Of a DNA stretch of 64,000 bases, positions 17,426-60,355 are shown one piece after another; positions within the stretch are counted from its first letter, which is position 1, and every line of letters begins with the position of its first letter. The notes beneath the pieces were generated by a model, which searched no databases, was not told the DNA's origin, and saw only the letters and a list, made by a program, of their open reading frames with translations. A program made the translations under genes and the position numbers. Origin of the DNA: Climacium dendroides. Taxonomy: Eukaryota > Streptophyta > Bryopsida > Hypnales > Climaciaceae. Where the stretch lies: NCBI GenBank assembly GCA_950106755.1, contig OX467083.1, positions 34,219,029-34,283,028 of the forward strand. Direction: 5' to 3'.

Positions 17426-17923
17426 CTACCAGTTCCCTTGGTAATACTGGGACGACCCCGGGTATGTGGATTTGTTGCGCCGTGCTTTGGAGCCGTAGCA
17501 CTTCAGATTGCTGTAATAGCAGGAGTAATCCACCTGAAGCTCCTCGTGAGGGCTCTTCGCCAGGCTCTGCACAAACTCCGCCCAAGGATCGTCTTTGTCC
17601 ATGGCGGGCGCAGCCGCGTTGAATCCGTGCGGCGAGCACTCGTAGCTTGGCGGACTGGGAAGCGCCATGAGCGATTCGTAGGCGCGGTTCACCTCCATGA
17701 AGTTCACCTCGCATTCCTCGCCTTTGCAGACATCCGGGTGGCACTGTAAAGCTAGTTTGCGGTACGCAGCTTTCACCTCGCCTTTGGACGCGTTTGGAGC
17801 AACGCCAAGAACCCTTCCGTAATTCGTTACTGCAGACTCTCGGTAGGAAGTTCCAGCGGCTGCTCTCACTCCTGCAACTCTCTGAGCGGGACTGAAACTC
17901 GAGCACTGGGCGAACGACGCCAT
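17426..17923 (-). CDS. Chloroplast-type J-domain protein (DnaJ/HSP40 type III)
   Basis: A J domain covers about residues 35-95 of the protein that starts at the ATG at 17923: NYGRVLGVAPNASKGEVKAA for helices I-II, the HPD loop in QCHPDVCKG that stimulates Hsp70 ATPase, then helix III (VNFMEVNRAYESLM). HPDVCKGEEC resembles the HPDVC-x-G-x-xC signature of plant plastid J8/J20/J11 proteins. The N-terminus is Ser/Ala/Arg rich with few acids, as in a plastid transit peptide. An in-frame ATG lies upstream at 18001, but MASFAQCSSFSP looks like the better start. There is no intron. The frame ends at a TAG near 17426, while another frame stays open to 17235 and looks protein-like, so the C-terminus is uncertain. 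Confidence 0.8.
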   Translation of the reverse strand: MASFAQCSSFSPAQRVAGVRAAAGTSYRESAVTNYGRVLGVAPNASKGEVKAAYRKLALQCHPDVCKGEECEVNFMEVNRAYESLMALPSPPSYECSPHGFNAAAPAMDKDDPWAEFVQSLAKSPHEELQVDYSCYYSNLKCYGSKARRNKSTYPGSSQYYQGNW

Positions 17924-18002
17924 TGGGAACCAAAAACAAATTGAACCACAAACCCTGGAGCCCTGTCTACAAGCTGGGCTCCTTCTCAAGAGCGTAACCA
18001 AG

Positions 18003-18742
18003 AACCCCGGAACGCAGTTTGCAAGATAACCACAAGTAAATCACAACCGATTCTCTGAATTCTCAAAGCAAATGAATCCACTGACACTTGAGAGATGTAC
18101 GAGAGTCCAATTCGCCTCTCTCTCTCGAGTGACAGTCTTTCTGCTCGATCGCTTGTTTGCTTGATGGGTGTGCGATCATTTTACCATTCCTGGACACCCC
18201 GTTTCCTATCTTATACCCCTCCGGCAATCCCGCTGCCAAGTCGAACGTCTGCGAGAATACATCGTAAAGGACGCCACTTTAAGACTTGCTTTTGACTTCT
18301 ACCACTACGATAGCCATATCTGACTGCAAAGAAAGGAACCACACCCTGGCAGGCGTGAAGAAGACGCGGCAAGCGCAGGCAGGTCAAGGTCAGACAAACT
18401 CTGCTTTGTTGGACTCTGTCCGGGCCGAAAGGGACGCAAAGTTGCAAAGCAACGGTCTTGCTGCAAAGGAAACGTTTTTATAATGGGGAGCAAACGTGCA
18501 TGGCAAAAGGAGCCCTTTTCTTTTGGGCCCCGTGAGGCTTCGTTGCACAAGTTCAAAATAAATCATATTGCACCATCTCCAATGAAAAGTAGTCTGTATT
18601 CACCAATAAAATTTCCATTTCTATTTTAAACGTGGGTGAAGTTGCCAATTCCGGATTAATAAGTACATAAATATAATTAAGAAGTGTTCTTTGGTCCAAA
18701 AGATGAATAAATGTAGAAGTTCAGTGCTTCACCAAACTTTAA
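18003..18742. other. Upstream region of the J-domain gene
   Basis: Relatively GC-rich to about 18540, consistent with promoter and 5' UTR of the minus-strand J-domain gene, then AT-rich. The short frames here (18095-18556) look like chance overlaps. Confidence 0.4.
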
Positions 18743-19716
18743 CCCTAGACCGCCCAAGAGGACAAAAAGTGTCCTCACATAGTTTTAAGTTCTATTCAAA
18801 CTACTGTAACTTTTGCATCCAATGTCCAAATTCAATAAAACTTGTTGGAAAATTTGCGCCTTTTTTTCTAGTTTGTGTGGCAAAATTTTCAAATCAATCC
18901 AAAAGGTAATGATTTTTTAGAAGCCAATTCAGATTCACAGGCTCGATTTGATTCACCAAAGTGCACTTCATGGCTACAACTTCGGGGGCTTGTATCTCCT
19001 TCATCCAATGTTCGATTTCAATGAAATCTGTTGGATTAGATTTCCCTTGAAGTCTAGTTATTGTGGTGAAATTTTCATGTCAATACAATTTTTTTTGAAT
19101 GTTTGGGATCAATTCGAAATTCAAAATCCCGCCGTTCTTGGACTATAGTGAACTTTGGTGGCTTGTATCTTCTTCATACATTCTTCATTTCCAATACTTG
19201 TTTTTGGGAAAATTGCGCATACTAGTCTAGTTTGTGTGGCTAAAATTTCATATCAATCCAAGAAGTTACGAGTTATTGATAAGCGTTTTAGTAGATGGAG
19301 GTTCAACCTCATATGTGATTTTTGCAACTTTTCTTGCCTATTTTTTGACATTTGCAAGCCATTTTGCAAACACATTGAGTCAATTGAATGATAATTTTTT
19401 TTCACCAATGTGTTTGTATGTTGTTTTTAAATCACTTTATAGTTTTAAGTTTTTTCATTTGAGTAGGTTTTGGAATCGAATTTCACCTCCAAGTGTGTTG
19501 CAAGGAAAATTTCAGCATCTTTTTTCAACACTAAAACATTATAATCTTTCAATCCATGCGGTCAAATGACTCCAAATTTGTTCCACATCATCTACAGCAT
19601 GTTTACTACAAGATTGTGTAGTTAAGATCTGTATAACTTAGTCTCATTTAGATTTTTAGCACTTCAAAAGCTACAATGTTTTTAATCCAATCCAGCCATA
19701 GGCGGTCTAGGGCTAA
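18739..19716. mobile_element. TTAA-type element P4 with internal tandem units
   Basis: Body 18743-19712 (970 bp). Its perfect 12-bp terminal inverted repeats are CCCTAGACCGCC and GGCGGTCTAGGG. The left flank is TTAA; the right is CTAA, one change. Ends starting CCCTAGA are typical of piggyBac-like elements. The interior holds three degenerate units (near 18800-18905, 18985-19090, 19155-19270), each with a 'cttgtatct.cttcat' block and a 'tagtttgtgtgg..aaattttca..tcaat' block. P5 at 40291-41254 shares this interior in the opposite orientation. No transposase frame. Confidence 0.75.
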
Positions 19717-30638: not shown

Positions 30639-30650
30639 CCCTCTTTGGCA
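30639..30650 (+). repeat. Target-site duplication, left copy
   Basis: CCCTCTTTGGCA, identical to 47766-47777. The rest of the left flank continues the repeat paralogous to 23629-23740. Confidence 0.85.
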
Positions 30651-30891
30651 GGGTTGCTAGCGTGTGAGCTTGTGAGCGTGAGCATGTGAGCCTGTGAGCG
30701 TGAGAGCGGGAACTTTTTTGTTGGAAATTCAGATGAAGGACCTATGACCGTGGATCTTATGATTGTTCATTTTTATAATTTTGAAGACAAAATCTTTCTG
30801 GATTGTTTAGGAAAAATGGTTAATAATTCAACCCAAATAAACCCAAACAATTGTACATGAATTATTACATATAAGTGGTTTATGGTATGAA

Positions 30892-30990
30892 GGTTTAGGG
30901 TTTAGGGTTTACGGTTTAGGATTTAGGATATGTAGTGGTAAGTTATTCTATACATGTGTTTAATGGTATTGAATGTTTAGGGTTTAGGGT
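30892..30990 (+). repeat. Telomere-like GGTTTAG repeats near the left TIR
   Basis: A short array of GTTTAGG(G) units, several perfect, at 30892-30930, with two more near 30978. They match the plant telomere unit TTTAGGG. Only a few units are present, so this is an interstitial telomere-like tract, not a chromosome end. Confidence 0.7.
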
Positions 30991-31118
30991 TCACTCCAAG
31001 ACAAAATTTGAAAATAACAATGTGTACAATGAATGTAACCATAAAACACACAAATCCACTCATATGAAAAAAGAAATACAAGAAACTATAACTCACAAGA
31101 CATGTCTACCTTGTGAAT

Positions 31119-34100
31119 CTAGGCAACAGAGGATTCGGTTGCAAAATCATTGTTAGCAGAAGAATCAGAAGTCTCTCTACCTTCCGATGCACTTACATCT
31201 AAATACTCTAACACATTTAAAGCATAAGTGTCTTGTCGCTTCTTTGGTTTAGAACCACCAAACTCTATAAATGCCGAGGCCATCTGCTCTGCATACACTA
31301 GCAAAATGAAAAGACTTTTCCGGAGTCAAAACAAGTCTTCTTTTGCGCAATGTTGCATCGTGGAATGTCACTTTTTGGTGTCTGCAAAATCAAATTAAAA
31401 TATGTTAAAATCATAAACACAAGCAACAAAATATTCACATTGAATGCACACCTCTGAAAACTTACTTACTAGTGTTTTGATTCCGAGAAAAACTAAAGAC
31501 CTCCACCTCCATTGCATCAGGATCTTTAATATTGTCATCCTCTTCCTCTTCTTCTGTCGTCTCTTCCTCCTCAATCATCCTCTTCATAGGTAGCAAGATC
31601 ACGTTGAAAATGGCTTCATCCTTCTCCAAAGCTACAGCATGTCGGCCCGTCCCTCGACATGTCGTAATTGATGCACCTAACAATAAACACATGCAATTCA
31701 TTAGCAAAATTGGGGATTCAGAATTTTATAAATGAAAACAATTCCACTTGAGCTTAACCTTACCAGTTGCTCCTGTATTATCGAAGACAATGTCTCCTTC
31801 GCTTGTTGTTCCTTCAATGATGAATTGAAGAAGCCTTGCGTCTTTCTCACGAGGACCCCGCCACGATACGCTTCCATTCATCAACATACTATCAATGGTG
31901 GAATAGTCGATCAACGTATCGTCACGTTCAAGATCTACTTTGGCCTTCTTCATTGCTTCAATCAACTTGAACTTGAACTGAGACTTCCGTCTCTTGTCAA
32001 GCATCTTCACCAACAACGAGATTCCGAACTTCATTGTCTGCAAGTCCAAAATTCAATTAAACATTTATAATACATAATGCAATCAATCCCAAGCACAAAA
32101 ATAAAACAACCACTAAATTGCAAGACATCCATACCGTGTTTGTCGGATTGAGGCCTGAAGTCAAGTGCATGCGATTGATTCCCAACCACTCTTTCAACTT
32201 TAAGAATGGATATGCCTGAGTCAAACCAACCACCACGCCCCTTGCCTTTGCACTCCAGGAATGAAAAATGACAAAACAACCATTGTCTTGCAAATGTTTT
32301 GTTGCAAATAAAATTGTCTGTTCAATCTCTTTGAACTCTTTATCATGGTTCCATTTGGGCACATGGTTTTCTAGTACAGACACTCCTAGAACAAGGAGGT
32401 TTTCTTGAAGGTCAAACAAAATGAGATCAACTCCAGCCTTTTTGCTCATCTCGCCATTGAACATGCGAGTCTTGCCATCAGCCACCTGCATACAAAATAT
32501 CTATAAATGATTCCAAGAATTCAAAATAACAAGTTCATGCAATATGTTGATATTGTGACATGGCAAAAACTCAAATATAAAATACACACCTTCACCAAGA
32601 ACTCCATAACTTCCCCATAGCATGATCCATTTTCCTTGCCTTCATTTTCCATCACATCAATGATAGAGTTGTTGAGAATCAACTCCTCCGTGTTCACCTC
32701 CTCGTCATCTCCAATAACAATCACTTGGGTGCCTTGTGTGACCATCTCTTCAGTGAGCTCTTGCAAGACCGCCTTCCTCTTCACGCCACTATGTGTTCTA
32801 GACTCCATTTGCGATCCTTGGTCCACTGTACAAGATCCAGGTACTTGATCTCTACCCTCCACCTTCTTCTTCCCTTTACCTTTATGCTTCCCTTCCTTCT
32901 CTGCCTCCTTCTCCTTCTCAGCCAACTTTGCTAAACGCTCTGCTCCTTTCTTCTCCTTGTTAGCCTTCATGTCGTTTTTTTTTCTTCTTCTCATCTGCAA
33001 TTGTTCTGCGTAAAATAGCTTTCTTCTTTTGGGCATCGGGAAGGTCCGCAAATTCGGGCACCTCTAAATCAATCACCCCAAGTCCGTCAAATGATTTGCG
33101 CAATGTAACTTCTGAAGAGTGGGTGTACTCCAGTGGGCACTCCAAGTACCATCCGCCACCAACCAAATTAGCTGTTGTAAACGTCCGGAGCTGAGTGGGT
33201 GAAAACATGCACTCTTTTGAACTCCAATCCACCCAAGACATAAGGAAAGGAGGTAGAGAGCCTTGTGAAATAGCGCCTTTAGAAACAAGCTCGAGATTGA
33301 AGTACCTAGAACATGAGCACAATCATAAGCCAATGTTTGAAAAGATAGTAGCCTATATAATTTTTAGAATATTAGGTCTTGTATTTTATCAACTTCAACA
33401 CTCATAAATGTTCAAAGAACTCAATTGAACATGAAATGAATCCCTTCCAAGATTACATTGAACTATGCTTCACCAAAAGGTGGGGTACTAGAAGGGAGCC
33501 AGAACACCCCCGTCGGGTCCGAAGGAGGTATTCATGGTCCCTTTTGATACTCCAATTTTTTTATTTTTTTTATTTTTAGTCGGAAAAATGAACAATTTTC
33601 ATTCTTAAGGAGAAACACAACATAGAACCAAAGGAAAAGGTCCCTAGAAAACTTTTATTAACTTTTTTTAAATGAACATCAACAAGAAAAAATGAACACA
33701 AGGTAAATTCCAATTGCTAGTTTCAAGGATCAAAAAATATTGTCTCTTTATTATTTTCTATTCATTTGCCTAAAAGTAATTTATAAAAAAGAAATAAACA
33801 TCTTGAAATAAGTAACCATTCAGAAATGATCCAAACTTATTATTCATCTACCATATCATTTTTAAAAAAAAATGATAAGTTCTCTTAGAAAACAAAAAAT
33901 GGGGGTACTAGCAGGGAGTCCTTGTACCCCCTTTGGATCCAACAAGGGTATGAAGGCTCCCTCCCAGTACTCCTACTTTTGGATTCCCAAGAGATTTAAA
34001 GAAAAATTATAAAAATTGAAAAATAATTTTTTAATTTTTATTTCACTTGTCAATTTCAACATTAAATTATATATTTGAAATCTTACCGGTATAGAACCCT

Positions 34101-36891
34101 CCGGACGGCTTGGTCCGATCCTTCGCGACTCGAGAATGAATCATGCTTTTTGAAGTTGTTGGTTCCCTTCAAAGTTGGGCCAAATGCATATTCCCATAGC
34201 TTCACCCTCCACCCCTGAATGTACGCCGCTAGAGTTTCTGGGGGTTTGGGCAAGTCCATGTTGATGACTAGCTTGTCATTTGCCACAATGTCGTCTAAAT
34301 ACTCCTGAGCTGCGTCTTCAAGCTACATGAAACAAAACAATTAACTTTCTCATCCAAGAAATGCAACTTTCATTGAACAAAAAGTTATTCATTTCAAATA
34401 CAGCAAAGGGCATGAAATTGCATTCAAAATAACTATTCTTGACAACAACCATTTTGTATGGTAAGGGACATTACCCCGGCCCACCAAACAATTTTTCCAA
34501 GAAAAATTGTGAATTTATCTTCTGAGACTGGGGGCCCTGGAAACTTCAATGCCTCTTTTGAAGCACCGGAAGAATTCCACCATTTTAAGACTTTGAGCTT
34601 ATGAGCTGCAGACATTGTACTTGTTGCAAGCAATTGTAGCTTTTCCAAAGTCATTTCAGGAACCTCATTCCTAACCCAATGCTCCTCCACCTATAAAATA
34701 ACATTATGTTAATAAATATGCATCTTTTTCACAAAATAAGCAAAACAAAGAACTCATTTGATTGGAATTTTTAAAATTACCTCTTCAAGAAATTCTTTTC
34801 CAAGGGCAGGATTTGCAACGGCCAGTAACTTGCCCATCTTTCCACGTAACTTTGAGACTTTTTCTTTTGCTACAGATCTCATGGCGTCAGCAACTCCTCG
34901 GTTGGTTCTTTCTTCAGCAGGTGTCTTATCAAGGTAATGTCGAGTAGCAACGTCCGCAGCCTGAGAAATTTCATGCTGCAAATGATATTCATCACCAGAA
35001 ATTTGTAAGTAATGAAACTCAAAATTTAGAGCGCCTACCTTATTTTTTTGTAAAGAAAAAGAATGTAGGAGGCAAAACTAAACTCACCCTAAAATTAAAT
35101 GATGTGAAAACTTCCACGGGCATTGAATACCACGCCTTTCTACCCATTTGATACTCGCATTGCTTCCTTTCTGAGGGCCTCAACATCTCGTAGATCTTCT
35201 TTATCTCCATTTTCCCGTACTTTTGCACACGGTACAACGTGTGCACCAAATTTGTCTTCACATGTGAATCTTCAGTGGACCTGAAATATTAAACTCAAAT
35301 TTTCAATTCACACAACAATCATACAATCTATCATAAACCAACATGAATAAGATGAAACATAAATAAACAATGGAAAAATTAAGAAAAAGAAATCACGTAC
35401 TTGTTAATTGCATGCATCACTTGCATCGTCATTTCCACTTTTCCTTTGGTTTCTAGCATGATGCAATCCACCAAAAAATGCCAGTTGATGTCCAAAGGAT
35501 ACTTTCTTTGGATATGGCTCATCCATGCAATTTGTCGATGGTTGCCATCACATATGAAGAACTTCATATTCCTCATGAAATGCAACTCTGGCCTTGTTTC
35601 CAAAAATGCTACGAACTCATCATTTCTTTGTTGCCATAGGGGGCCCCAACTTTGAACCTCCTCCTACTGAACTCTGCTCTCTCGCCGGCCTCATTGGTTG
35701 TCGAAACATAAAATGACGCTGCTCCATCTCGATAACCATGAACAAAGTCTTCCTCAAGTTTCTGTAAATCGGAAGAAAGTGTTGGCCTAACCATCGGCAT
35801 TGGCACTAACCTGCAAAGCGGGATCTTCATGCGCGATAAGCTCTCTGGCTTAAACCTCAGTATCGATAATGTTGCCACAGAGTCGACCTTGTGAAAACAA
35901 CAAAGCTCATCCTCAAGAAAATCTTTGTCTTCTTCCTCAAACTCTGTCTCCTCCAGTGCCTTGTTCCAAATCTCATCCCGAACCGCTCCTAACATTACTT
36001 CACCTTCTATGTCTGGTTGCTGAGAGTCATCCGTTGCAGGTGTAACTTGGTGTTGCTGGTTTTGGGACAATATCAGTGGCAAATCTTCTCTCTATAAAAT
36101 AAAAAACACCAAATAGTAGAAATACAGTCCTTGTCAATAGAATGTCAAACAAGAAGCTTAAATAAAATGTATTCATCATAAAATTATACGTGCAATGATG
36201 TATACAATAATAGTATGAGTTTATTACCAAAAAATCTAGCTATGCTTTTGGCAAGTTGATAAAACAAAATGCTAGTTATTTATGAACGAAATTTATTAAT
36301 TCCATACAATGAATCAATCTTGAAAGTATTTATATAGTGTACGTCATACATACGTAGATACTTGACAAATGGAAATTTATATATGCATAGAATAAATTGC
36401 CACAAATTCATGTATCCTTTTCATTAAAAAAATCATTCAATGTCTACATCATCTTGAAAGTTGGAACACTGGTGAATGATGACCAAGCGATTATACCGCA
36501 ATTGTTTCCGTCCTGAACAATCACAACGCACAGGACCCCAAGGAATAGAAATCGACGGGGACGAATCAGCATCAGAGCTGAATGAAGAAGTGTCACTACC
36601 CTCTGTGTCAGAACTCTCCGCTGAGAAAACAAGTTTTCTAGGATCACGAGGCTTTGGGAAACTAATTCGGCTTCCCTTATCTTGCTCAAGCTCATCAGCA
36701 GCACGATCACACGCATCCATGATATCATCAAAACTCACCACATCCACTTCACGTCCTAAGTTGTCGCTTTCCATCATTGGAAGTGGCCTTGGCGTCTGTG
36801 TAACTCGCTCCTCCACAATCTCCTGGCCCAAGACTTCAGATTCTGCATGCAAAGATGATGCCATGCTAGGATTCACGTCCGTCGTGTCCAT
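31119..36891 (-). CDS. ParB-like domain plus beta-class DNA methyltransferase, multi-exon, frameshifted
   Basis: Candidate exons: 36891-36448, 36091-35401, 35280-35088, 34975-34781, 34690-34475, 34322-34087, 33305-32590, 32485-32135, 32037-31764, 31676-31466 and 31381 downward. Internal introns are GT-AG and phases agree if two 1-nt shifts (near 35648, and in an A-run near 32975) are treated as errors or mutations. Domain order: acidic N-terminus; ParB-like region (IPLCRLVPMPMVRP, then FFICDGNHRQIAW); helical middle; Lys/Glu-rich stretch; methyltransferase with DLILFDLQE at the motif IV position, then DNGCFVIFHSW, and a C-terminal motif X/I segment, LLQFIIEGTTSEGDIVFDNT, continuing to RHAVALEKDEAIF. 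Motif IV preceding motif I is the beta-class order. DPPY is replaced by DLQE, so catalysis is doubtful. The start exon and the last exon (another 1-nt shift near 31315) are uncertain. Confidence 0.6.
33489..33570. repeat. Palindromic element repeat D1
   Basis: Imperfect dyad: GGGGTACTAGAAGGGA on the left, core CGTCGGGTCCGA, and 'atggtcccttttgatactcc' on the right. It lies in the intron 33306-34086 of the ParB-methyltransferase gene. Confidence 0.7.
33900..33978. repeat. Palindromic element repeat D2
   Basis: Same design as D1: GGGGGTACTAGCAGGGAG, core TTTGGATCCAAC, right arm CTCCCTCCCAGTACTCC. Located in the same intron, about 410 bp from D1. Confidence 0.72.
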
Positions 36892-37694
36892 TTGCAAAGC
36901 ATTCGACCAAACAATTTAATATTTGACATAATAATGCAAAGAAATATGAATCAAGGGATGCTCTTCTAAAAGCTTTGGAAAGCAAAAAAAAATTAAAAAT
37001 TAAAAATTAAAAATTAAAAATAAAATAAAAATTAATAAAAATAAAAATCTAATTTTTCTAAGGCAAAGTATTTTTAAGGAACACTATAAGTGTAGAAGTC
37101 AAGTGTCACCTATGCATTTCAATTGCTTCATCTCTTATTCAAGGAAATAATTAAGGAATTGCTTTGATTATTATAGTGATTGTATCTAATAACATACTTT
37201 ATCCTTTGAACTTATCCCAACATAAAATGCAAGAAAAATGAGAAAAAATGAGATACATGAATGAATCTAAGGAACGAAATTTACAATTTAGTTATTTATC
37301 CTAAACTATCTAAATATGTTTTCAAAATAATAAAGACAAAAAATCTGTAGAAGCCTTTCAGAATTTCATACTTTAATATAATTTAATCAATGTGAAATTA
37401 ATATACAATATGCATGCATAAAATTAGTCATTCTTAAAATTTTCATATCATTTTCAATTTTTGTTTTAATAAATTATGAACAACTGAAATTACATATAGA
37501 CATGAAATTATGTATCCTACTATATGAATTATTGTAATTTCAGTGAAATCTACTCAAATAATGAACTATTACACATATTTGCATGATGAGGAACATATAA
37601 TAGAAAATATCATTAAAAAAATCAACATTGGAAGGAAAACAATAAAAAAAGGATATAATTCTAATTTGGGCCCTCTCATGTGACGGATTCATGT

Positions 37695-37761
37695 GGTGTC
37701 TTCAGATTCCGTTTAATGCCCGTCGGATCCGACAAGGGTTATAAAAGAACTTGAAGACACC
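37695..37761. repeat. Palindromic element repeat D3
   Basis: Arms GGTGTCTTCA and TGAAGACACC are exact complements around the perfect 12-bp palindrome GTCGGATCCGAC. The sequence CCCTCTCATGTGACGGA precedes it and recurs before D4. Confidence 0.78.
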
Positions 37762-37831
37762 CTTAAAATTAGTCATCGAAGCGGTACTTGTACTCTATTT
37801 TTTATTTGACCCTCTCATGTGACGGAATACA

Positions 37832-37903
37832 GGGGTAGCTGCAACTACTTATTTGACCCTAGTCGGACCCGACGGGGGTGCACTGCGATGCTCCCACTAC
37901 CCC
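37832..37903. repeat. Palindromic element repeat D4
   Basis: GGGGTAGCTGC at the left pairs loosely with the right arm ending CACTACCCC; the core is GTCGGACCCGAC. It is followed by 'gacttttgg', as are D2 and D7. Confidence 0.7.
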
Positions 37904-38357
37904 TAGATTCTGACTTTTGGAAAAATGGATCAACTCAAATTAAATAATTCGGCTATCTCCAGAAATGAAATTCTTGGAGTCTCCATTATGGAGTTTTCTT
38001 TTGTATATTTGCTACTCTCACCAAGACGGCATATCTTGATCCCAAAGTCATCCAAACTACAAATAATACATCCTGATTTTTGTACTCAACAATGCAAGAG
38101 GTCACAAATCATGAATAAACTTAGGAACCTAAGGTCACCAAATCCAAAACTAACCGAATCAAGAATTCAAGGAAGTAGTTCACCGCATCATGAAATGGAC
38201 AATTCCTGAACCCTACCCATTTGTAAACAAAGTTAGTCACCAAATCCAATCCGAACGCACGTACGCATCCTAGACGCATCCCAAATGCAAGACAAAACAA
38301 TTTGACTTCTCATGAACTGACGCTGCAGAGGGAGGAACGTCTCAAATGACAGAAAGT

Positions 38358-38431
38358 GGGGGTATCCAGAGCGTTGCAAGGGAACCCTGTCGGGTCCGAC
38401 GGAGGTCGGGCAGGTTGCTCAAGATACCCCC
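38358..38431. repeat. Palindromic element repeat D5
   Basis: Outer arms GGGGGTATC and GATACCCCC are exact complements; the core is GTCGGGTCCGAC. Confidence 0.75.
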
Positions 38432-39259
38432 GAAAAGGGGCGCGGCATACTTTCGTTCTTCCGAACTCACGGACTGGACCCCGCCTCGGCCAGTGACGGC
38501 GTCGGCACGATCCTGCCTCATTCCCTCGCTTTCCGACCTGAATGTAACCCATCGACCGCCACCGCGTCCCCTGGGGTCGTCGGAGGAGAGCTTCGGAAGG
38601 GAACAGGAATGCTAGCGAGGGCAATGTGGTCGACCTGGTGGAGCTGGACACTCGCCGCAAGCTTGCTTTCGCCGCGGGAGTCGCTCCACCAGTTCACGCT
38701 GCGCGAGCGTTGCATATCGGCACAAGACCAACCCTCCGCATCCGCCACCGATCAAGGCGACGGACTTCATATTGACAATTCAATTCACAACATTGACAGG
38801 CGGGAAGCCCAGGGGGCGGGACGCGCTCGGGTAGCACTAGGATCTGCAGACACAAACAACAATGCAACCGGAAGCCGGGAGTCGCGGCACAGAAGTCCAC
38901 TTGGAGTGCATCGAGAGACGATCATCATCGCGTCGAAGGATCTTGCATCGCTACAGCCCCCCCTTCCTTTACGCCACGAGACCCTCAAGGGGCGCAGCAG
39001 CGGTCAACAGGAAGTCTTAGAAGTTCGCGGCATTTCACGCTAACAACACGGACCGGAATACACTTCAACCAAGACAGACTGGGACACGGAACCCACCTTC
39101 CAATCGCACTGACAACCCAAGCCTCAAACTTTCGTTTCCCAAGCAATCGCATGGCGAATCTCGCCCCCCGGACGCCCACCACCACCACTCATGTCCAACG
39201 ATCACAATAGTACTAGGCGACATGAACAAGGCAGCACAGTCGGGACAGTTAGGCACCGA

Positions 39260-39590
39260 GAAAATCACCAAACCGTGCTCGTGCTTTCCCTGAGGATCCC
39301 GTGGAGAAACCGAGCAGATCAAGGCACTGAGCTTGCGCTTTCCTTGAGGATCCTGTATAGAAACCGAGCAGATCAAGGCACCGAGAAGTTCAAAGTTCAA
39401 GGCACCAAGCAGATCACTGAACCGCGCTCGCGCTCTCCCTAAGGATCTCGTGTAGGCACCAAGCAGATCAAGGCACCAAGCAGATCACCGAATCGCGCTC
39501 TCCTTGACGATTCCGTGAGGCACCGAGCAGATCGAAGCACCCAACAGATCACCCAACCGCGCTCTCCCTGAGGATCCCGTAGCAGCAGGA
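39260..39590. repeat. GC-rich degenerate tandem repeat, units of about 65-75 bp
   Basis: About five units share the blocks CCGAGCAGATCAAGGCACC and CGCTCTCCCTGAGGATCCCG with small changes. The unit contains GGATCC, also present in several palindrome cores. Confidence 0.8.
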
Positions 39591-39773
39591 TCCGGTGGAA
39601 TCCTTCCCCCACGAAACTATAACAAGGCTCTCAGACTCAAACTCAAACTCAGTATCGATGCTCTCAGACTCAGTATCGATGATCTCTCAGACTCTCAGCA
39701 GGGGGCTCGAAGCAGGGGTTCAGATCTGAATTCACCTTCAAGGACAGAAAACAAAGGTAACTGGAGATGGCCG

Positions 39774-39813
39774 CAGGACCCCTGTCGGGTCCGACGCTTG
39801 TCCGCAGGTACCT
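39774..39813. repeat. Palindromic element repeat D6 (short or partial)
   Basis: The core GTCGGGTCCGAC lies between CCGCAGGACC and GTCCGCAGG. Shorter and less symmetric than the other copies. Confidence 0.5.
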
Positions 39814-39910
39814 CGATCAACTACGAGAATCAGTTCACAATGTAGTGCAAGCTACCTCCACACCCGCTCAGATCGAACAAAAGAAAAGTTCATGCTATCT
39901 CGAATCGTAC

Positions 39911-40027
39911 CTGCAAACTTGCATCTTGATTCTCGTGCTCCAATGCTTCCTCGAAATCGTCCTCCAGTGGGCGGCTCCGAGTTCTCCTACGAGGTTGACC
40001 TCTGCTGGGGCGCTGCAAGGTCGACAT
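39911..40027 (-). CDS. Candidate first exon (39 aa) of the minus-strand gene
   Basis: An ATG at 40027 opens MSTLQRPSRGQPRRRTRSRP, followed by an acidic stretch, and ends in phase 0 at the donor TTGCAG/GTACGA. The phase fits the exon beginning near 36891, where the sequence is TTTGCAAATGGAC, as if an acceptor CAG had become CAA. The link across 3 kb is inference. Confidence 0.35.
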
Positions 40028-40290
40028 CTTCAAAAAATTTTAAGTTGTGAACGAACTGAGAATGAGAGAATGACTGCCGTTTTGAATTCCAAGCAAAAGT
40101 CTGAGAGATCATCGATACTGAGTCTGAGAGTCTGAGAGCTATATCCGGCCATTTTGAATTCCAAATATAGCTAGTAGAATTGTATTTCCAAAATGGATGT
40201 AGCGTGGCTTCTGGAAAGCTGCAACTAGACAGTTGGTCCCGAGAAAGAGACGGTTCAGTACTGTAGTTCGTTGCAGAGGCTAGGTTTCCT

Positions 40291-41254
40291 TTAACCCCAA
40301 AGTGACATGAGATATCCAGGGTCTAAAACATCCTTGCTTTTGAAGCTATGCGGACCTAAATTTCTTCAAGTTATACAAATCTCAACCATACAATCTCGTA
40401 GTAAACATGTTTTAGATGACGTGCACAAAACTTCAAGTCAATTGGCCGCATAGATTGCGAGATCATAATGATTAAGTGCTGAAAATGAATGCTGAAATTT
40501 TTCCCAAAACACATTTGGAGGTGAAATTTGATTTCTAAACCTACTGATATGAAAGAAATTTGCACTACAAAGTGATTTAAAACTAGTATACAAACACATT
40601 GGTGAAAAAAAAATTCATGAAATTGAATCATGGTGTCTAGAAAACAGCTTCGAACTGCCAAAAATAGTCCAAAAAACTGTAAAAACCACATTTAGGGCTG
40701 AACCTCTCCCCACTAGAATGCTTCTCAGTCACTCAATACTTCTTGGATTGACATGAAATTTTAGCCGCACAGACTAGACTTGTAGGCACAACTTTCCCAA
40801 AAAGTTTTATTCAAAACGGACTATGTACAAAGAAGATATAAGCCACCAAAGTTCACTGTACTCCAAAAATGACAGGGTTTAGAACTTCGAATTGCTCCCA
40901 AACATTCAAAACAACTTGGATTGACATGAAAATTTTACCACAATAACTAGACTTCAAGAAAAACAAATCAAAACAAATTTCAATGAAAACAAATCATTAA
41001 TGAAGAAGATACAAGTCCATGAAGTTGCAGCCCTAAAATGCAATTTTGTGAACTTTTGCAAAGCTGTGCTCTTTGATTGGCTACTAAAGAAACAATACAT
41101 CTTTGATTGATTTGAAAATTTAACCACATAAACGAGAAGAATAAGTGCAACTTCTCCAATAAGTTTCAGTAGATTTGAACCTTGGATGGAGAAGTTATAG
41201 TAGACTTAAGACTGTGTGAGGACACTTTTTGTCCTCCATGCACTTTGGGGTTAA
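40291..41254. mobile_element. TTAA-flanked element P5, nested in the giant element
   Basis: Body 40295-41250 (956 bp) with exact TTAA duplications on both sides and perfect 10-bp inverted ends CCCCAAAGTG and CACTTTGGGG. Its interior is an inverted relative of P4, again with three repeated units (near 40741, 40914, 41098) carrying 'ttggattgacatgaaa.tttta'. Intact ends and TSD suggest it inserted after the giant element. Confidence 0.85.
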
Positions 41255-41356
41255 GGCTCGTGAATTCACCCATCTTTGCATACATTGATAATTTACATCT
41301 AATTCCAACATATTGCAAACCATTGAAAGGGTAAGAATTGGTCCGTAGAATCTTAC

Positions 41357-41551
41357 TAGTAAAAGTTGATCGCTTTCTGAGATGCCTTGCAAGCTTGTCA
41401 TGCCCTCATCAGTTGTCTTCATCCATTCTAACTCCTGGACTTCTCGATCCATTTCTCCACCACTGCCTCCACTTTCAAAACGAAGATGTTTTTGAAGTTC
41501 TGTCTATGACGACTGGCCTATCTTGGACAAAGTTTTCTTTGAGCGAGTCAT
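41357..41551 (-). pseudogene. Candidate N-terminal exon with in-frame TAG
   Basis: The ATG at 41551 opens MTRSKKTLSKIGQSS, then a TAG at 41504-41506, then the frame continues through SGGSGGEMDREVQELEWMK to a phase-0 donor (CTA/GTAAGA) at 41356. The frame also stays open past the donor up to the P5 insertion point. It is a second first-exon candidate for the minus-strand gene, or a relic of a third gene. Family not recognised. Confidence 0.35.
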
Positions 41552-44500
41552 TCTAGATCGTCTAAGTGACTTCTGCGATGAGAAATAAAGAGAAATACGT
41601 CTCTTCCGTTTGTTTCTATGGTCTGGAACTACGTCTGCAAATCTATCACAATCTGTAAGCATGAATACCACTACATAAGCCTCAGAGGTCTCAATCGATG
41701 AAAAGCATAGTGTCTATGTTAAACGCTGCAGATGGAAAGACATGAAAGAAGGAGATGTAGAGCCTATTTATTTAACGTTACCAACTAGGTTCGTTCCCTC
41801 AAAGTCTCAAATAGCCTCGGAAGATTAGGATTGGGAGAACTACCGCCTTTTTATTTGAATATTATGGACAGCCCACTTAACATTTGATGAGCCGTCTTCT
41901 AATTCTGACACCTTACTAGATTTTGTATCTTTTACTCTAGGATATAAGACTGACACATTTGAATGAGCGATCTCTTTCACGTATTTTGTCAGAGCTGCCT
42001 TCATTCATAAATTTTATTTTTTTTGAACGAACCTTTTATTGAACACGGCTACAACGGTAGACTCATAAATTTTTGTTTTTTGAATGAAACTTCTTCCAGA
42101 GTTGTGACATCCCATTTATTTCACTAAATTCTATTGAAAGCAACAATATTTGAACTAAATGACGGCTTTGCCATATGAATAATTTTTACACCTACTGACA
42201 ACTGCAGTTCACTAAACAATTTGTACTTTTGGAATGGTATTGGTAGAATTGAAACAACATAATTTGTGTTTACTATATAGTACCTCACATCTTATGGCTT
42301 CTATCTTTATAGTTTAAGACTTCAAAGTATGTCTTGCTTCTAAATCGTTTGTTTTGCACTGTTGTTTTATCACCATGGCTTGCATTAGAGTAGACGGTCA
42401 TGCAATTCCAGTGGTGTTTCCGTTGGTTGGTAGAAATCAAGCAAGAGTATCTAGTCATCTTCTACATGTACGTTTCAGGTTTGTTGAGTCTTCAATCTAC
42501 ATAGAGGAGGAGAGGAAGTCTGAATGCGGTGAGAACGTGGAGTTTGTTCCTATTACAAAGAGTGAGGATGAGGATGGAGTTTGTTGGTTCCTTCCTTTAG
42601 GCAACTATAGAGCTTATGGTCTTCCTTTGTCCATTCAAAATGCATCCACGCAGATGGTCAGTCGCCAGTCCAATAACTCCACTGTAGATATGCCGTATGT
42701 CACAAGCGCTATCTCTCCTCGACCTCCTGAGAGCGTACTTCCAAGTCCTAGTCCAAGTACTTTTCTACACGTTGTAAAGATTGAGAAATTGGACTCTATA
42801 ATAGATTTGTCAAGTGAATCAGAAGGAGAGTCACCTAACGTTACTATCCGTGAGAAACTGCCATCCATTGGAAATAATGTTGATAGTCGTGAGATTTTCC
42901 ATTCCTTTTCGGACACCCAAACCAATACTTCTACACAGTCTCCGTTGTCTCATCCTCCATTGTATCCGCCTACACTTGATAGGAAAAGCATAATGGAATG
43001 CTTGAAGAATTTGAAGAGCATGCATAGATCTAGGAACGAACTGTCCACAATAGATTTGAAAGCCATCAAGCACCATCAAGTTGGGTTTCTTCCACCAATC
43101 TTCAATGGGGATGTCATCTTTGAGTTGCCTCCATGCCGCACGTGGCCATCTTCATCGTCTGCTGGGAATTTGGAGGGGATGGACAAACGTTATGATGGAC
43201 ATGTGTGGTGTAAGGTACAAACTACCAATATTCATAACTCTGACAAGTTGAAATTCCGGAAGTCCTATTGTGTTGGTCATCTTGTTTGTGTGAATCATGA
43301 TTGTGAATATGTGAAGAGAGCTAGTAAGCGCAATGAGATAGAGTGGAGTGGATATACAGTGTCTCCATTTGTAGTAGGCGACAATCCTTCTAAGGATTGT
43401 ACGTTAGTTTGCAAACTTTGCAAGGAGACTCCAAAGTGTCTAAAGCAATGTGAGGCTAGAATATACTACTGCTATAGTGAGGTTCCTAAATTGACAAGGG
43501 CTGCAATTCATCTTGGATATCATTCTCATCCAGTAGCAAAAGGCATGTATAGAGATTCTGCAGACAAGATTTGCGAACTCATTGCAGAGCAAGTGGCAAA
43601 GACCCCTACTGCCACAAACTCTACCATTGCTCTCTCTGCAAGCAAAGATTTCCTCACGACATATTTGTTTCACAACAGAGAGGGAGAGAAAGAGATGTTG
43701 AAGGGTGAAGAGCTAGAAGTGGTTATGGATCGTTTCTAGTACCTAAGCAGTCCCAACATTAGAAACGTCATATCCTCATTTCGCTCAAACAACTATGGAG
43801 GCATCATCGACAACATAATGATGATGAAGAAACAGTCAAAATTTGAATTCATTCACGACAGCGTCTTTCCTGGCCAAGGAAAGGAAAAGGTGTTCATTTT
43901 CAAGATGCTCACTAAGGGACCTGGAAGTGGTGTGGACCTAGTGAAACGCATGCAACTTGGTGGAAATCTTCAGAATGCATGGATGATGTTCGACCACGTC
44001 AAGCGTGTAAAGGAGTGGACGACAATGGCTTGTCATGTGTATGATCCAGATTACAAGAGGGTCATGACCATTGGAACTTGTGATATGCAATCAGAAGATA
44101 CCGAGATTCAGGTTCTCTTTTGGAAGTGCTTGAATGCTGTAATGTCGCGATACGGAGTTGAAAACCCGAATTTTAAAGGATTTATGGCTGATAGTGCTAT
44201 GGCCAACTGGAATGCCGTACGAATTGTATACAGAAGTGGTTTTGCAGATTAGAAAATGGAGAACAGGGAAAGAACATGCTTATTGCATTGGAGTACTTCA
44301 CTCCAAAAACACACACAGAAGTATATTAAAGAAGCGTTTCAACAGCAGCACACTTTACTTTGTAAACAGTACAAAGATGCGAAGTCCATGGAGGAAGTAG
44401 AAAACAAATACTTGGCAATTCGGTCGTGGTGGTTGTCGTCAAGAGCCACTACTGAAGATGCACTTCACCACTTAGAACATTGGCTTGCCTTTTGGCATTT

Positions 44501-44854
44501 TCGATATAGGCAATGGGGAGGATTCATGCAAATGGTAAGTCAATTTCCTTAGACACCTTCTATCTTTGAAATTCCATTTGCAAATTTTATTTTTTCTAAA
44601 TTCGAAAAAATTTAGAAAAATAATTCATATTTATATAATTTACTTAGAATGTCGATTCAATTTCCTAAATCATTCCTTTAAGAAAAATAGAAATGTTAAG
44701 GACTGATTCAAAGTTGGTGTATAAAGAAGGACAATAAATACATCCATCAAATAGGAGTTGTATACATTAGATGAATTTTAGCATCTCAGAAAAAATTATC
44801 ATTTTTTTTCAAAAATTTTCACAAAAAATTAGTGTACAAATCTAAAGTGGAGGT

Positions 44855-44928
44855 AAGAGGAGGGACCTTCAATACCCCCTTCGGATCCGACGGGGCTATA
44901 TTGGATCCTTCTAAGTACCCTTACTTTT
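44855..44928. repeat. Palindromic element repeat D7
   Basis: GGTAAGAGGAGGGA, core TCGGATCCGA, right arm 'ccttctaagtaccctta'. It lies in the single intron of the transposase gene. Confidence 0.7.
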
Positions 44929-45134
44929 GGTTCATGTTTGAGGAATTCAAACAAAAAATTTCCAAAAATTGAACAAAAAAATGTGATGATTGTTGGAGTG
45001 ATATAAAATCCCTAATTTAGATGTAAGGGGTTCATTTTTTGCCTCCAATAAAACATTGAATAAAGGTGTTTTGAATTTGTATTTTTGTTTCAGGTTTAGG
45101 AAGAATTTTGAATTTTGCCCCCTAAACCAAAAAC

Positions 45135-45212
45135 GAGGGTAGTAATAGAAATACCTGAGACCCTCATCGGAGCCGACGGAGTTATTTGAAGTCCTTATTA
45201 ATACCATCACTT
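45135..45212. repeat. Palindromic element repeat D8
   Basis: GGGTAGTAATAG at the left, core TCGGAGCCGA, right arm 'tccttattaataccatc'. Same transposase intron as D7, 280 bp further on. Confidence 0.68.
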
Positions 45213-46707
45213 TTTATTTATGGACTTATAAATATTTATTTGTATCTCTGAGGGTTTTTGAAGATGGTATGAAATATTGAATTACCAAAGCGTAATATTT
45301 GAGTGGTTTCATTTTCAGGATTTGAGTTTGGAGGAACTTGCAGATATGCCTTCATGCAATTTGTCAGAAACTGTGGACAACAAGTGGCTTCAAATGTCTG
45401 GGAACAAAGGAAACAATCTCTTTGACGCCACATGTGATGACAATATTCGTGCATGGATGCAAATGACAAATTACCGAGCGTACTTGAAGGGACACGCTTC
45501 TAGATCTGGTCCGTCGAAAGGAGAGCTAAAGTTGAGAGCAGCAAGACGTAGCGGTGATCCTAAGAAAATTGCAGAGGCTTTGAATTCATTGCCTGGTTCT
45601 GAAGGTGTTGGAACTCGCATTCCACATTTAGAAGGAGAAGAGATTTTTGGGAGCACAAAGAGGAAGTTAGACGTTCCCATTGGCGATGCAGGGGACTCGC
45701 ATAGACCTGATAAAGTTAACTTTTCCCAGCCTCGTGTTTGGACACGGTCCACGACAGTGTCAATAGAATCTTCAGGAAATAAAGGTAAGCAACCTCAAGT
45801 GAACACTCCGACACACGTTACGGTTGCGTTTGAAAGTGATTGTGATACATCGAAATGGCACATTGCAAGGATTAGTCACAAGTCCAATGCAAAATGTTAT
45901 GCTCAACAATGAGATTCAAACATCACTTGCAAGGCAAAGATTGCCAAAGGTCGAAAGGGAACCCCTGCTCCAACCTATAGTAGAAGAAAGATAGATTACG
46001 GGACTAAAAAAGAAATAGTGGCAGACTTTTGGTTCTGTGCAAATGACATTGAACGGTGCGTCAAGGGTAACAAACGGAGGTGGGTTATAGAGTGGCCGGT
46101 GGTTCCTGAAGTATGGCCTATCTTAACAGGAACAAATCTTACTCGAGAAGAGACGTTATTGTTGCAGCATGCTGGATTTCGACTTCAAGAGCGTCCTGTG
46201 TTATCTCCTCGACGACTATTCAGTATGTCTAATATATTTGAGACTGTGGTATATGACGAACCAGTTCCAAAAGACGCACACATATATCCAACTATACGAA
46301 ACAATCGTAGTATTCGCCGAATTGCAAATGCACCTACAATTGAACAACGCAACAAGTAGGAGAGTGCTAGCAACATCAAGGGAGAGATATTGGAAGTGAC
46401 GTTGTTACCATTTCCTGGTTTAAGAGCGATTGTTTCACTACAAACTGGGGTTGAACCAAATTCGAATGTGTATCGAATTACTGTGGGCATGTACCCATCA
46501 TGCACGTGTCCTAACTTTACTTCTATGGCAATTTCAGCAATAGGAGGTCGACAGCAGTATGTGAATTGCAAGCATTTGTATTATCTTTTCCGGTACTTTT
46601 GCAAAATGGACATAAATGAGGACAAGTTCATCCATGCACCAAGCTATAGCTTCAATGAGTTGAAGCTTATTTTAGTTAAGGCGGGGATAATAAGAGTGCT
46701 AGAATAA

Positions 46708-47765
46708 GAGCAGGCACTAGTTGAAAGTACTGCAATGGTATGATAGAAGACAAAATTTCATAGAATTCTAAATATTTTTTGTTTACTAAGGAAGTTATCA
46801 TTTTCTTACGAAATTCATCATTTTGTTCATTTCCTCTTTCCACTTGTAGTTTGGATTTCATTAATATTGATTCCAAGACTTCAATCATTATGTTTTTATT
46901 TGGAAGTTTGATTGCTTTGTCATTATTTTTTGAAGTATACTATGTGTTCATTGAAGTTAATTTTTTTATGTTGGTGATCACTTCATTAAAAAGGATTAAT
47001 GCAGCAAGAGGTCCAAGAGACTTAAACATGAAGGCATGGATTCTTTATCTCTACTTTTTTTGGATCATTGTTGCAAACTATAAACCACACTTATGCAAGC
47101 ATTCATGGTAGTTTGTTAGCACAGAATATCGATGAGTGCTAAAAATAGAGAAGAGTGCCTAAACCAATGTTCCCCGGCTCCTATTCATATATCCCATACC
47201 AATTGGCATTGCAGATTGCACCAATATAAAAGGTGTAATATCCGGTAGTCATATGTTGTAGAGGACTGTTTAGGGAATAGACTTTCTCAGTCATCTTGAG
47301 GAGAATTATATTCCCAACACTCCTGTGATTTTGTTTAAAAAATTAAATGAAGCCTATACAAAGGATTCAAGTAGCACTTAATATATTTTTTAATCCACGG
47401 TCATAGGATAAGTGGTTATAGGTCCTAAATTTAGCTTTAATAGGGACTTAAACCCATTTTTTTCTGAGGTACGCTTTCTCCTAAAATCCTAAACAATGAC
47501 TTTCATTCTCACTATGCAGTGAATTTTTCTAAAACGGAATAATAAATTTCCAAAATATTTACTCATCCACGGTCATGGGGTGCACGGTTATAGGTCCCAA
47601 ATTCAACATAAACAACCCAAAAAATTGAATTTTTTGAATTCTTTTAGCAAAAAAAATTCTATTGGACAAAAAATGAGAAATTTTTGGCTCCCCGCTCCCA
47701 GCTCATAGTCTCCCCGCTCGCCGCTCACAGGCTCACGGCTCCAGGCTCGCACGCTAGCGTCGTTG
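46708..47765. other. Right subterminal region of the giant element
   Basis: Non-coding. Two copies of 'ccacggtcat..gg....ggttataggtcc' (47396 and 47569 onward) and a GAGC-rich terminal array (47690-47757) mirror the left end. Confidence 0.65.
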
Positions 47766-47777
47766 CCCTCTTTGGCA
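47766..47777 (+). repeat. Target-site duplication, right copy
   Basis: CCCTCTTTGGCA followed by CTTCATAAAAAA, which is how the paralogous empty site at 23743-23760 continues. Confidence 0.85.
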
Positions 47778-51587: not shown

Positions 51588-52022
<435 letters not shown>

Positions 52023-54868: not shown

Positions 54869-55544
54869 TCACAAGTCGGGGTTAATATGATTAGTGTAGT
54901 CGTAAGTGCCGGCACCCTCCCAGCCCATCCACTCTTCCCATTCTTCCCAGTTATTATCTCCCACGCCCATGAAGGATTCCAAGTTGTCTGAGAGGTCGTC
55001 TTCGAACTCTCCAAACTGGGATGTCGTGTCTTGAATTAAAGCCTGTCAAACAGAAAACAAAATAATCAAGTTTGTCAGTCGAGTCTTCGAAACAAAAGCC
55101 ACAGATCGATCGACGGAGTGTACCTTAGTGCAATTTTGCATACATACGTCACTCACGAAATCCCTGGAGCCAATAATCCAAGCATGATCACTGTAGAGAA
55201 AAATCATTTCATGAGGGGAAGATGCTGACCTCGTAGGCTCTCTGAACTTGCTGGAACCCCTGGGAACAGTGATCGCCCCTGCAGACATCTGGGTGAAGCT
55301 CCAGTGCAAGGCGTCGGTAACTCTTTTTGATTTCTTGCTTGGTTGCAAACCGGGAGACTCCTAAAACACTGTGATGGTCCTCAGTGGAATTTCTTTGAGG
55401 CAGAAACGCTCTTGCCACTAATGTTGATGTCCTAGTTCTCCCGGGACAACCCACAACTCCTTGGTCCCAAACTCTTGGCGCAACCGCGTCTCGACTAAAA
55501 CATCCAAGAGAATTATATCCGCTGCGTAAAGCGTTCAGATCCAT
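54869..55544 (-). CDS. Chloroplast J-domain protein, J8-like
   Basis: Two exons, 55544-55230 and 55042-54869, joined in phase 0 (donor GAG/GTCAGC, acceptor TTTGACAG), giving 162 aa, close to the length of plant J8 proteins. After a Ser/Arg/Ala-containing presumed transit peptide, the J domain reads DHHSVLGVSRFATKQEIKKS and ELHPDVCRGDHC with the HPD motif. The C-terminus EEWMGWEGAGTYDYTNHINP carries the EEWMGWEGAGT-type tail I associate with J8. It acts as an Hsp70 co-chaperone in the plastid stroma. The chosen ATG is at 55544; the open frame extends upstream to a CAG at 55575 that may be the acceptor of a 5' UTR intron. Confidence 0.88.
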
Positions 55545-56930
55545 GATATTGGACTTGGATAATCTCCTTCTTTGCTGCAAGGACAGGAAATGTTTCTGAC
55601 ATCAGCTCGAGAATTTACCAAGGCAACGCAAGATTTTTTGTTCGTACTCTGCACTGGGCAAATAATCAAACCTCCTCTAAACTCTGTAAAATTCTCAGAC
55701 CTAATTTTGAGTCCAACTGTGGATTCACGTGTTTTGTGAGATACAAGAAAAGATCGCACCACACTGACTTCCTCTCAATGATTCTTTGGGAGAACCCAGG
55801 TAGAGAAAGTGAGCTCACCTCTTTTTGTTGACACCCCTGCAAGGTTGGCCAGTGATTTCTTGACGAACTTCAGCACACAGGTTTTATCGGAGTTTCTCAA
55901 ATTACACAGACTTGGAAAAAAAAATTGCAGTCTAACTTGAAATTTCTTCCGAATTTGTCCAGCGGAATGAACGATCGCCGATCTGCAGCAGCTGCATATA
56001 AATTACTCACGAAATCTGGGGTCGATACTTCCACGCCGGTCAATAGAAACAAAAGTAACAGATTCTGCGTATGGTTCGGACACAAAAGCGTCAATTTGGA
56101 GCTCCTAGCGAGTACCCCACAAATTTTGCGCAGCTTCGATACTCTTACAAGTTGTGAATAGACTGCACCTCGGCGTTGCAGGAATCTCCTACAATAGTCT
56201 CACCCCAATACACTCAACGTCGACACGAAAGAGAGTGAGAAGTGTCGCAACCGAATGAAGAAAGTAACGGAAGCCCGACACCTTTTATGACTTTGGGGAG
56301 AAAAAAATTGGTTGGTTGCCGCGGTGCACATGACCTCTACAGTTGCAGTCCGACTGAACGCTCACGCGCACCTTCTTCCGTGGAAACGGAACCTGATCGC
56401 CTACCGTAATCCATAGATACTTGGATTACGGGGGATCAAGTGACTCATGAAGTCCCACTCATCAGGATAGAATTTTTTTCGGTAAGTAAAATCTCGTGAC
56501 GTGACATTATTCCCAGATGCTCAAAAGATGCTGCAATCGTTGGTAACAGCATGATTATTCTACGAGTTTCTTCATACCCAGAGTTACCTGGTCTGTTCTG
56601 TGCAACAGCGGGCGGCCACGCATTGACCTCACAGAGAAGAAAACGAAATATCCGAGCTAGCTAGGGCTGCCTACCAGTCCGGGATACTACTCGCGCTCTC
56701 AACAGTTTAGGTCAAGTCAAAGGTCATGTCCACTGGATGCACGAAGTGCGCGGTGAGCCCGGCAAGAAGTCGAATCAAATCCGCGTAAGCCACCGGGAAT
56801 CCAATGAACCGAGACATTCGAGAAAGAATATGCCATGAAGATACCAAGATGGACTTGGAAATAGGGATAAGGAAGCTGCGTGACAGCCGTCATCGTTTTG
56901 CGCAGACACACTCACACTGGGAGTTGTCTG
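55545..56930. other. Upstream region of the J8-like gene
   Basis: Moderate GC content, presumably 5' UTR with an intron and promoter. I see no additional gene. Confidence 0.4.
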
Positions 56931-59447: not shown

Positions 59448-60355
59448 TTAACCCCTATAGTCCCAAAGTCTCTTTGGGGGACTCTTGGGATTTCAAGTAG
59501 GTTCGTGTAATCTCAATTTTTGACAGGATTTTTTGAATTTTTTTGAAGATAGGAAATTAAATTAGCTTTCCAGGAATATAATTTTTTTATTTCAATCGGT
59601 GCCTAGAAATAAAAGTTATGCCACTATGAGTCTAAAAAGCAACTCGAGGAGCAACCCAAAAAAAATCACAAAAAGTTGAATTTTTTTTAATTTTAAATTT
59701 TTTCTGAAATATTATATTTTTGTCTACATCTGAAACTTTGATTCATTCTATTTGGTCTAGCGATGAGAAAGCTATAGACAATCTTATTTCTGGGGCAATT
59801 TAAGCATCTTTTAGAAAAAACAAACTTACAGACTTCATTTTTTAATACAATTTTAACAATTTAAAAAAAAAAAATTTAGGCAAGGTTAAATTTGCTTGCT
59901 AGATCAATCTCACTGTTGGGATTATTGTGTTTCAATTCCATTTTAGAGCTATTAATGGTTTAGTTATCCTTTCAATCTTAAGCTTACTTCTACTTAACAA
60001 TTTTTTAATGAGTGAAAATTAAGTGTTTTTTTGTTGAATTTTTTTTTAGAGTCTCAACTCAATTCTTCAAGATAAAAAACTAGAAAATCTAAATCAATAG
60101 TGCAAAAATTTTAAGTTAAGAAGATTTGAAGTCAAAAATCTAGTCAATCAAGGTGTAAAAGAAAACTTAGTTTCTTCACTTTGAATGCAAATATCTTGCA
60201 ATCTACATGGTCAACGTTTTTGAAACTTTTTTCATGTATTTTTATACTAGTGTAGTATAAGACCTTATAGTTAGACATGTAAATAAAAAGAAATTAAGTT
60301 TTTTAATAGAAATGGAAATTTTGATAGAAAAAAAACTTGAAACTTTAGAGGTTAA
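59448..60355 (-). mobile_element. TTAA-flanked element P3 (piggyBac-like)
   Basis: Body 59452-60351 (900 bp), exact TTAA on both sides, ends CCCCTATAGT and ACTTTAGAGG. Its interior is the reverse complement of P1/P2, including the 'gtcaacgtttttgaaactttt' region and the poly-A tract near 59860. Non-coding. Confidence 0.78.

Follow-up and report, generated by a model that had tools for sequence, protein, structure and literature searches.

A methyltransferase-related second gene with a possible ParB-like segment in a large DNA transposon family of the moss Climacium dendroides

A transposon with two divergent genes

Within a 64,000-nucleotide stretch of the Climacium dendroides genome (contig OX467083.1; hereafter, the window), we analyzed a gene that had been predicted from the DNA letters to contain introns, to join a ParB-like segment to a beta-class DNA methyltransferase, and to lie inside a plant transposon. 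The gene, at 31119..36891, runs on the minus strand from a start codon at 36891 to a stop codon ending at 31119 and consists of 11 exons with GT-AG introns in consistent phases. For comparison, we took six near copies (c35, c38, c2, c40, c34 and c3) found in the same genome. Their exon borders coincide with those of the window gene, except that three of the six each have one changed splice site (the exon 5 acceptor in c40, the exon 5 donor in c34 and the exon 8 acceptor in c2). Because the borders agree among the six near copies, some of which retain an open frame, the 11-exon model is sound, and the intron-containing gene of the original prediction is confirmed. In the window copy, exons 2, 7 and 11 carry frameshifts that break the gene. 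The frame runs uninterrupted for 1268 codons in c2 and c34, each of which carries one of the altered splice sites. It is also kept in c40, with four stops, and in c3, with a single stop, and is shifted in c35 and c38. The segments quoted in the original prediction are present: exon 2 encodes DGNHR, exon 8 DLILFDLQE, exon 9 EGDIVFDNTGAT and exon 10 GASITTCRGTGRHAVALEKD.

The gene lies within a mobile element of 17,117 bp (30649-47765), which begins with CAGGGTTGCTAGCGTG and ends with CACGCTAGCGTCGTTG, forming an imperfect inverted repeat. There are six complete copies (those in the window, c35, c2, c40, c34 and c3); both ends are common to all, and the flanking DNA differs from copy to copy. 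An exact 10-bp target site duplication surrounds five of the six complete copies, and in c35 the two flanks agree at 8 of 10 positions. Across the span from ~30.65 to ~47.77 kb of the window, five of the six near copies are matched by two overlapping segments with 91-93% identity; the remaining copy, c38, is interrupted and aligns in shorter pieces. Divergent from the analyzed gene, the element carries a transposase-like gene, whose two exons encode 1182 amino acids in copy c34 (the exon junction was picked by frame and splice signals) and whose window copy contains two in-frame stops within the core.

To follow this arrangement beyond the near copies, we collected matches to both genes across the genome. 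Exon 8 gave 150 scored matches among 893 candidates, and the transposase core gave 144 among 1135; these counts are of matches listed and are lower bounds, and a missing partner says little. The exon-8 matches comprise 28 with at least 92% identity, followed by a gap down to 54% or less. A listed divergent transposase match was present within 16 kb of 64 of the 150 exon-8 matches, at distances of 8,374-14,792 bp, compared with 0.3% of random places taken on eight large contigs. Among the matches listed, the linked share by exon-8 identity was 21/28 for the close matches, 32/65 at 50-54%, 11/35 at 46-49% and 0/22 at 43-45%. In the reverse view, which drew on the exon-8 match list and, from a further list with 149 rows, on the first 58, a methyltransferase-like exon was in place for 21/24 transposase matches with at least 93% identity, 29/54 at 86-92% and 14/66 at 83-85%. 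Together, these data show that the gene is the regular second gene of a large DNA transposon family, divergent from a transposase-like gene. The predicted location, within a DNA transposon and beside such a gene, is thus borne out by the common ends and target duplications of six complete copies. Among linked pairs that belong to other subfamilies, identity is 84-88% in the transposase core and 48-54% in exon 8; the second gene evolves faster than the transposase core. Separately, on contig C38 (16.09-16.70 Mb), seven related matches lie ~80-125 kb apart, as if a large segment had been repeated.

The neighboring gene had been referred to as a MULE transposase. Its acidic residues and SWIM-like motif appear MULE-like. 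No MULE profile match was listed for the protein in Pfam (limit E 5, with filters that remove most matches above 0.1), the Pfam SWIM profile gave E 0.2 and 11.7 bits, below its cut-off of 19.6, and a PDB search with this protein yielded nothing useful. MULE target duplications are given as 8-11 bp in PMC6446971, a range that includes the 10-bp duplication of this element. The duplication agrees with the predicted class, the profile search does not, and we describe the transposase only as MULE-like, making no assignment to MULE.

Short repeats are present at two places in the element. GTGAGC repeats occur near both ends (2-5 on the left, 2-3 on the right) and are rare inside, and tandem repeats of 48-64 bp (54-64 bp at 39272-39580) lie between the divergent genes, their number varying among copies. 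The tandem repeats at 39272-39580 could represent a protein-binding array; k-mer counts over the whole element revealed no convincing binding motif. A 0.9-kb intergenic part of the element (40325-41236) also has an inverted relative with 77% identity in the window (18758-19682), which may be part of a related element.

Table 1. Coordinates of the element, its two genes and their exons in the window.
Feature	Position	Strand	Remarks
Target site duplication, left copy	30639..30648	.	10 bp (CCCTCTTTGG)
Element left end	30649..30708	+	Imperfect inverted repeat from CAGGGTTGCTAGCGTG, with GTGAGC repeats
ParB-like (weak) and methyltransferase-like gene	31119..36891	-	11 exons; frameshifted in window copy; c2 and c34 retain an open frame
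Exon 11	31119..31381	-	C-terminal tail; frameshift in window copy
Exon 10	31466..31676	-	Remainder of motif I segment
Exon 9	31764..32037	-	Motif I segment begins (DNTGAT)
Exon 8	32135..32485	-	Motif IV position, DLQEN versus usual DPPYN
Exon 7	32590..33305	-	Last part of middle region plus charged linker; frameshift in window copy
Exon 6	34087..34322	-
Exon 5	34475..34690	-
Exon 4	34781..34975	-
Exon 3	35088..35280	-	EDSHVKTNLVHTLYRVQKYG segment
Exon 2	35401..36091	-	DGNHR (ParB-like segment); frameshift in window copy
Exon 1	36448..36891	-	Acidic N-terminal region
GC-rich stretch between divergent genes	38301..40100	.	Tandem repeats
Transposase-like gene exon 1	42375..44534	+	In-frame stops in window copy, open in c34
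Transposase-like gene exon 2	45319..46707	+	C-terminal CxC...CxH (SWIM-like) motif
Element right end	47686..47765	-	Inverted repeat closing in CACGCTAGCGTCGTTG
Target site duplication, right copy	47766..47775	.	10 bp

Outside the element, the window contains a minus-strand histone H4 reading frame (51588-52022) and, likewise on the minus strand, two frames containing DnaJ-like segments (HPDV; 17426-18040 and 55209-55601), all identified by eye, as well as oppositely oriented pieces from a different repeat family (6708-7530 and 59478-60295) that are 79-87% alike.

Selection on the product and cytosine changes in the element

We estimated omega, the ratio of nonsynonymous to synonymous divergence, by the Nei-Gojobori method among five subfamily members, excluding codons with stops or gaps. 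Values of 0.10-0.14 were obtained for the five of ten pairs with estimable synonymous divergence (dS, 1.6-2.8), the remaining pairs being saturated. By region, omega was 0.10 in the ParB-like part (1/10 pairs), 0.09-0.16 in the middle (4/10) and 0.12-0.21 in the methyltransferase-like part (6/10). This analysis shows that the product is held by purifying selection between subfamilies.

Departures from the six-copy consensus of the element were then scored as C-to-T changes, together with G-to-A. These amounted to 254/5815 (4.4%) at CG, 263/5528 (4.8%) at CHG and 317/29721 (1.1%) at CHH positions. An excess at CG and CHG is the pattern left by 5-methylcytosine (5mC), which suggests that the element has undergone methylation by its host. 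The CG and CHG change rates revealed no clear protected region when compared along the element; intergenic region A was lower (7/251 and 5/204), from a small number of sites, and misaligned repeats make such rates untrustworthy in the GC-rich part.

The encoded protein and its relatives

The methyltransferase-like part was searched with a query of exons 8-10, joined and flanked by short end pieces from exons 7 and 11. Pfam N6_N4_Mtase matched the window query with E 1.5e-5 and 25.5 bits, slightly below its cut-off of 26.7, and the best PHROG methyltransferase match had E 3e-8. The same Pfam profile matched three of the five rows of alignment A1 (best 1.1e-4, 22.6 bits). Across the six aligned rows, the NCBIfam CcrM model matched five (best 1.3e-5, far below the cut-off of that equivalog model), as did the PADLOC type II methyltransferases (MTase_II; best 4.8e-8). 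When the A1 profile was compared with the PDB, DpnA was retrieved with E 0.018 over the whole chain, no single stretch being significant, and D-C-Q-E-N was aligned to DPPYN. These profile matches show that the C-terminal part is related, at the level of sequence, to beta-class N6-adenine/N4-cytosine DNA methyltransferases, and the motifs in beta-class order that had been predicted are thereby upheld.

A search for related proteins using trimmed alignments as query retrieved only two, both from Ceratodon purpureus (P0001 and P0002), among 5.8 billion proteins (by shared words, with 6986 and 7303 candidates scored); the Ceratodon relative is 35% identical. With untrimmed A1, no relatives appeared among 7993 candidates; low-complexity words may have taken up the list. 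Neither IMG/VR viral contigs nor GTDB prokaryote genomes yielded relatives with two short peptide patterns each, and in a tblastn search with P0001, phages and plasmids matched only along a short methyltransferase stretch covering 8-12% of the query. P0001 itself matched N6_N4_Mtase with 30.4 bits, above the cut-off.

Active beta-class amino-methyltransferases usually carry (D/N/S)PP(Y/F/W) as motif IV. We examined this position at 18 readable loci of the Climacium genome, a set that excludes the near copies of the window element (one further locus, L038, was unreadable at motif IV). The motif reads DLQEN in the window, DCQEN in L030-L032, DCPEN in L027-L029, DIPEN in L033, L036 and L037, DVPEG in L035, L039 and L041-L043, DVLEG in L040, DVPKG in L034 and DIPDG in L044. 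Thus Y, F or W is absent at all 18 loci, and the fourth position is E in 16, D in one and K in one. Both Ceratodon proteins have the aromatic residue (DQPYN in P0002, DTPFD in P0001). The motif I segment, D-x-x-x-(S/A)-TG-(A/S), a putative S-adenosylmethionine (SAM) site, is found in all six aligned rows. Since the altered motif IV sits in a protein under selection, it does not reflect simple decay. Relative to DpnA and CcrM, the protein shares the order of motif IV followed by motif I, along with the profile matches, but DPPY is mostly replaced by D-x-(P/Q)-E, long N-terminal and middle regions are added, and the gene has introns.

In the N-terminal part, DGNHR and many residues of the segment that follows are invariant across the six aligned rows. 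Along this segment, the ParB-like partition protein family PHROG_1033 matched two of the six rows, with E 0.0063 and 0.025, suggesting with low confidence that this part may be ParB-like.

The original prediction knew of no description of such a combination. However, a close case has been published for a brown alga: the Ectocarpus transposon Sola1-1_Ec32 (21.5 kb) encodes an accessory protein of 1104 amino acids, with ParB-like and N4C/N6A methyltransferase domains, on the strand opposite to the transposase, and that report mentions similar proteins in green and red algal transposons, citing Iyer 2011 and Petroll 2025 (PMC12477816). The Climacium element resembles Sola1-1_Ec32 in being a large DNA transposon (17 kb), in the opposite strands of its two genes, in a protein (1268 amino acids) that joins a possible ParB-like segment to a methyltransferase-like domain and in a presumed role on the transposon's own DNA. 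It differs in its moss host, 10-bp target duplication, SWIM-like transposase motif and changed motif IV; the likeness is one of description. Sola1 elements have a short target duplication. We found no report, in the open-licence literature, of ParB-like/methyltransferase transposon proteins in mosses or other land plants.

Two further systems invite comparison. To our knowledge, VANC of the Arabidopsis VANDAL elements has no methyltransferase or ParB part. Like the protein described here, VANC is a second protein encoded by a transposon under host 5mC; it targets short motifs that frequently lie within tandem repeats differing from one copy to another (PMC5735166), and the Climacium element also has tandem repeats of variable number. 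Rotifer N4CMT is likewise a bacterial-type amino-methyltransferase in a eukaryote, but, unlike the gene described here, it is reported as the writer of an epigenetic mark (PMC8885841).

A possible accessory role on the element's own DNA

We favor, with a probability of roughly 0.55, the possibility that the gene encodes an accessory protein of the transposon, one that binds its own element and whose catalysis is altered or lost in the Climacium genome. Such a protein would bind through its ParB-like N-terminal part, with the GTGAGC repeats near the ends or the tandem repeats between the two genes as candidate sites, and may help the element to escape host silencing or aid its transposition. 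Loss or alteration of catalysis is suggested by the missing aromatic residue of motif IV; the Climacium methyltransferase part would then work mainly as a DNA- or SAM-binding part, whereas the Ceratodon protein may still methylate. The presence of both genes in one unit of ~17 kb with common ends and target duplications supports this reading, as do the recurrent divergent linkage with transposase matches, the low omega between subfamilies, the methyltransferase profile matches and the CG/CHG changes that point to host pressure.

Several observations weigh against it. The N-terminal part did not match Pfam ParB or any ParB entry in the PDB; it had no plasmid match and one phage match, at chance level, and a fold prediction of Ceratodon P0001 with P0002 reached a mean pLDDT (predicted local distance difference test) of only 30.5. 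For the methyltransferase part, a whole-genome search of single exons with PF01555 gave no matches, although 11 of 14 control genomes did give matches, and other residues could replace the aromatic one in motif IV. Every one of the six near copies has a defect in its frame or at a splice site. Four near copies gave omega of 0.29-0.80, from few changes, and dS among subfamilies is near or past saturation, making the omega values rough. Finally, the element has evidently been methylated by the host over time; therefore, any anti-silencing activity would be incomplete.

The failed searches bear most directly on the N-terminal part, where the predicted ParB-like segment is present as DGNHR and has its PHROG match but is unmatched by Pfam ParB and by ParB structures. 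It is possible, if doubtful, that this part is instead an unrelated, new DNA- or protein-binding domain, with the remainder of the protein acting as proposed above. The lack of ParB support from Pfam, the PDB, plasmids and phages would be expected in that case; the two PHROG matches and a domain order resembling that of the ParB-like/methyltransferase proteins of algal transposons would not. Alternatively, the protein could be an active methyltransferase that puts N4-methylcytosine or N6-methyladenine on its own transposon, thereby marking active chromatin or blocking host 5mC. This idea has been proposed for the Ectocarpus protein (PMC12477816) and would account for the methyltransferase profile matches, the retained motif I segment and the near-canonical DQPYN of Ceratodon, but we consider it unlikely for Climacium given a motif IV that lacks its aromatic residue at every readable locus.

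Two other explanations were considered and rejected. Low omega between subfamilies, a constant place and orientation in many elements, and the Ceratodon relative led us to reject a functionless passenger, picked up at random, as in Pack-MULEs, and multiplied with the element, as most improbable, even though gene capture by transposons is known, the window copy is broken and no copy is faultless. A domesticated host gene sitting in repeats by chance would have introns and gene-like selection, as this one does; it is scarcely credible here, and is refuted at the window locus, because inverted ends and target duplications bound the unit in six complete copies and because exon 8 recurs at high copy number. 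For the same reason, the term "domesticated" in the original prediction is unsupported, the gene being high-copy mobile cargo.

Within the favored reading of an element-binding accessory protein, we tentatively raise a more specific scenario. A bacterial-type methyltransferase, acquired by plant DNA transposons, may have been turned into a selected DNA-binding factor that no longer methylates, or that acts differently, and that recognizes the repeats of its own element and counters CG/CHG methylation, in the manner of VANC but with an independent origin.

The kind of protein is already published for a brown-algal transposon; new here are the land-plant host, the conserved change in motif IV and, apparently, another type of transposase. 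The finding would widen the range of these transposon accessory proteins, which are algal in the reports found so far, to a land plant at high copy number and apparently to a further transposase type. The near-canonical motif IV of Ceratodon and the non-aromatic motif IV of Climacium make possible a direct test of whether methylation is needed or binding alone suffices. If the protein acts against host silencing, it would join VANC as a second case from plants and could reveal how elements persist under CG/CHG methylation.

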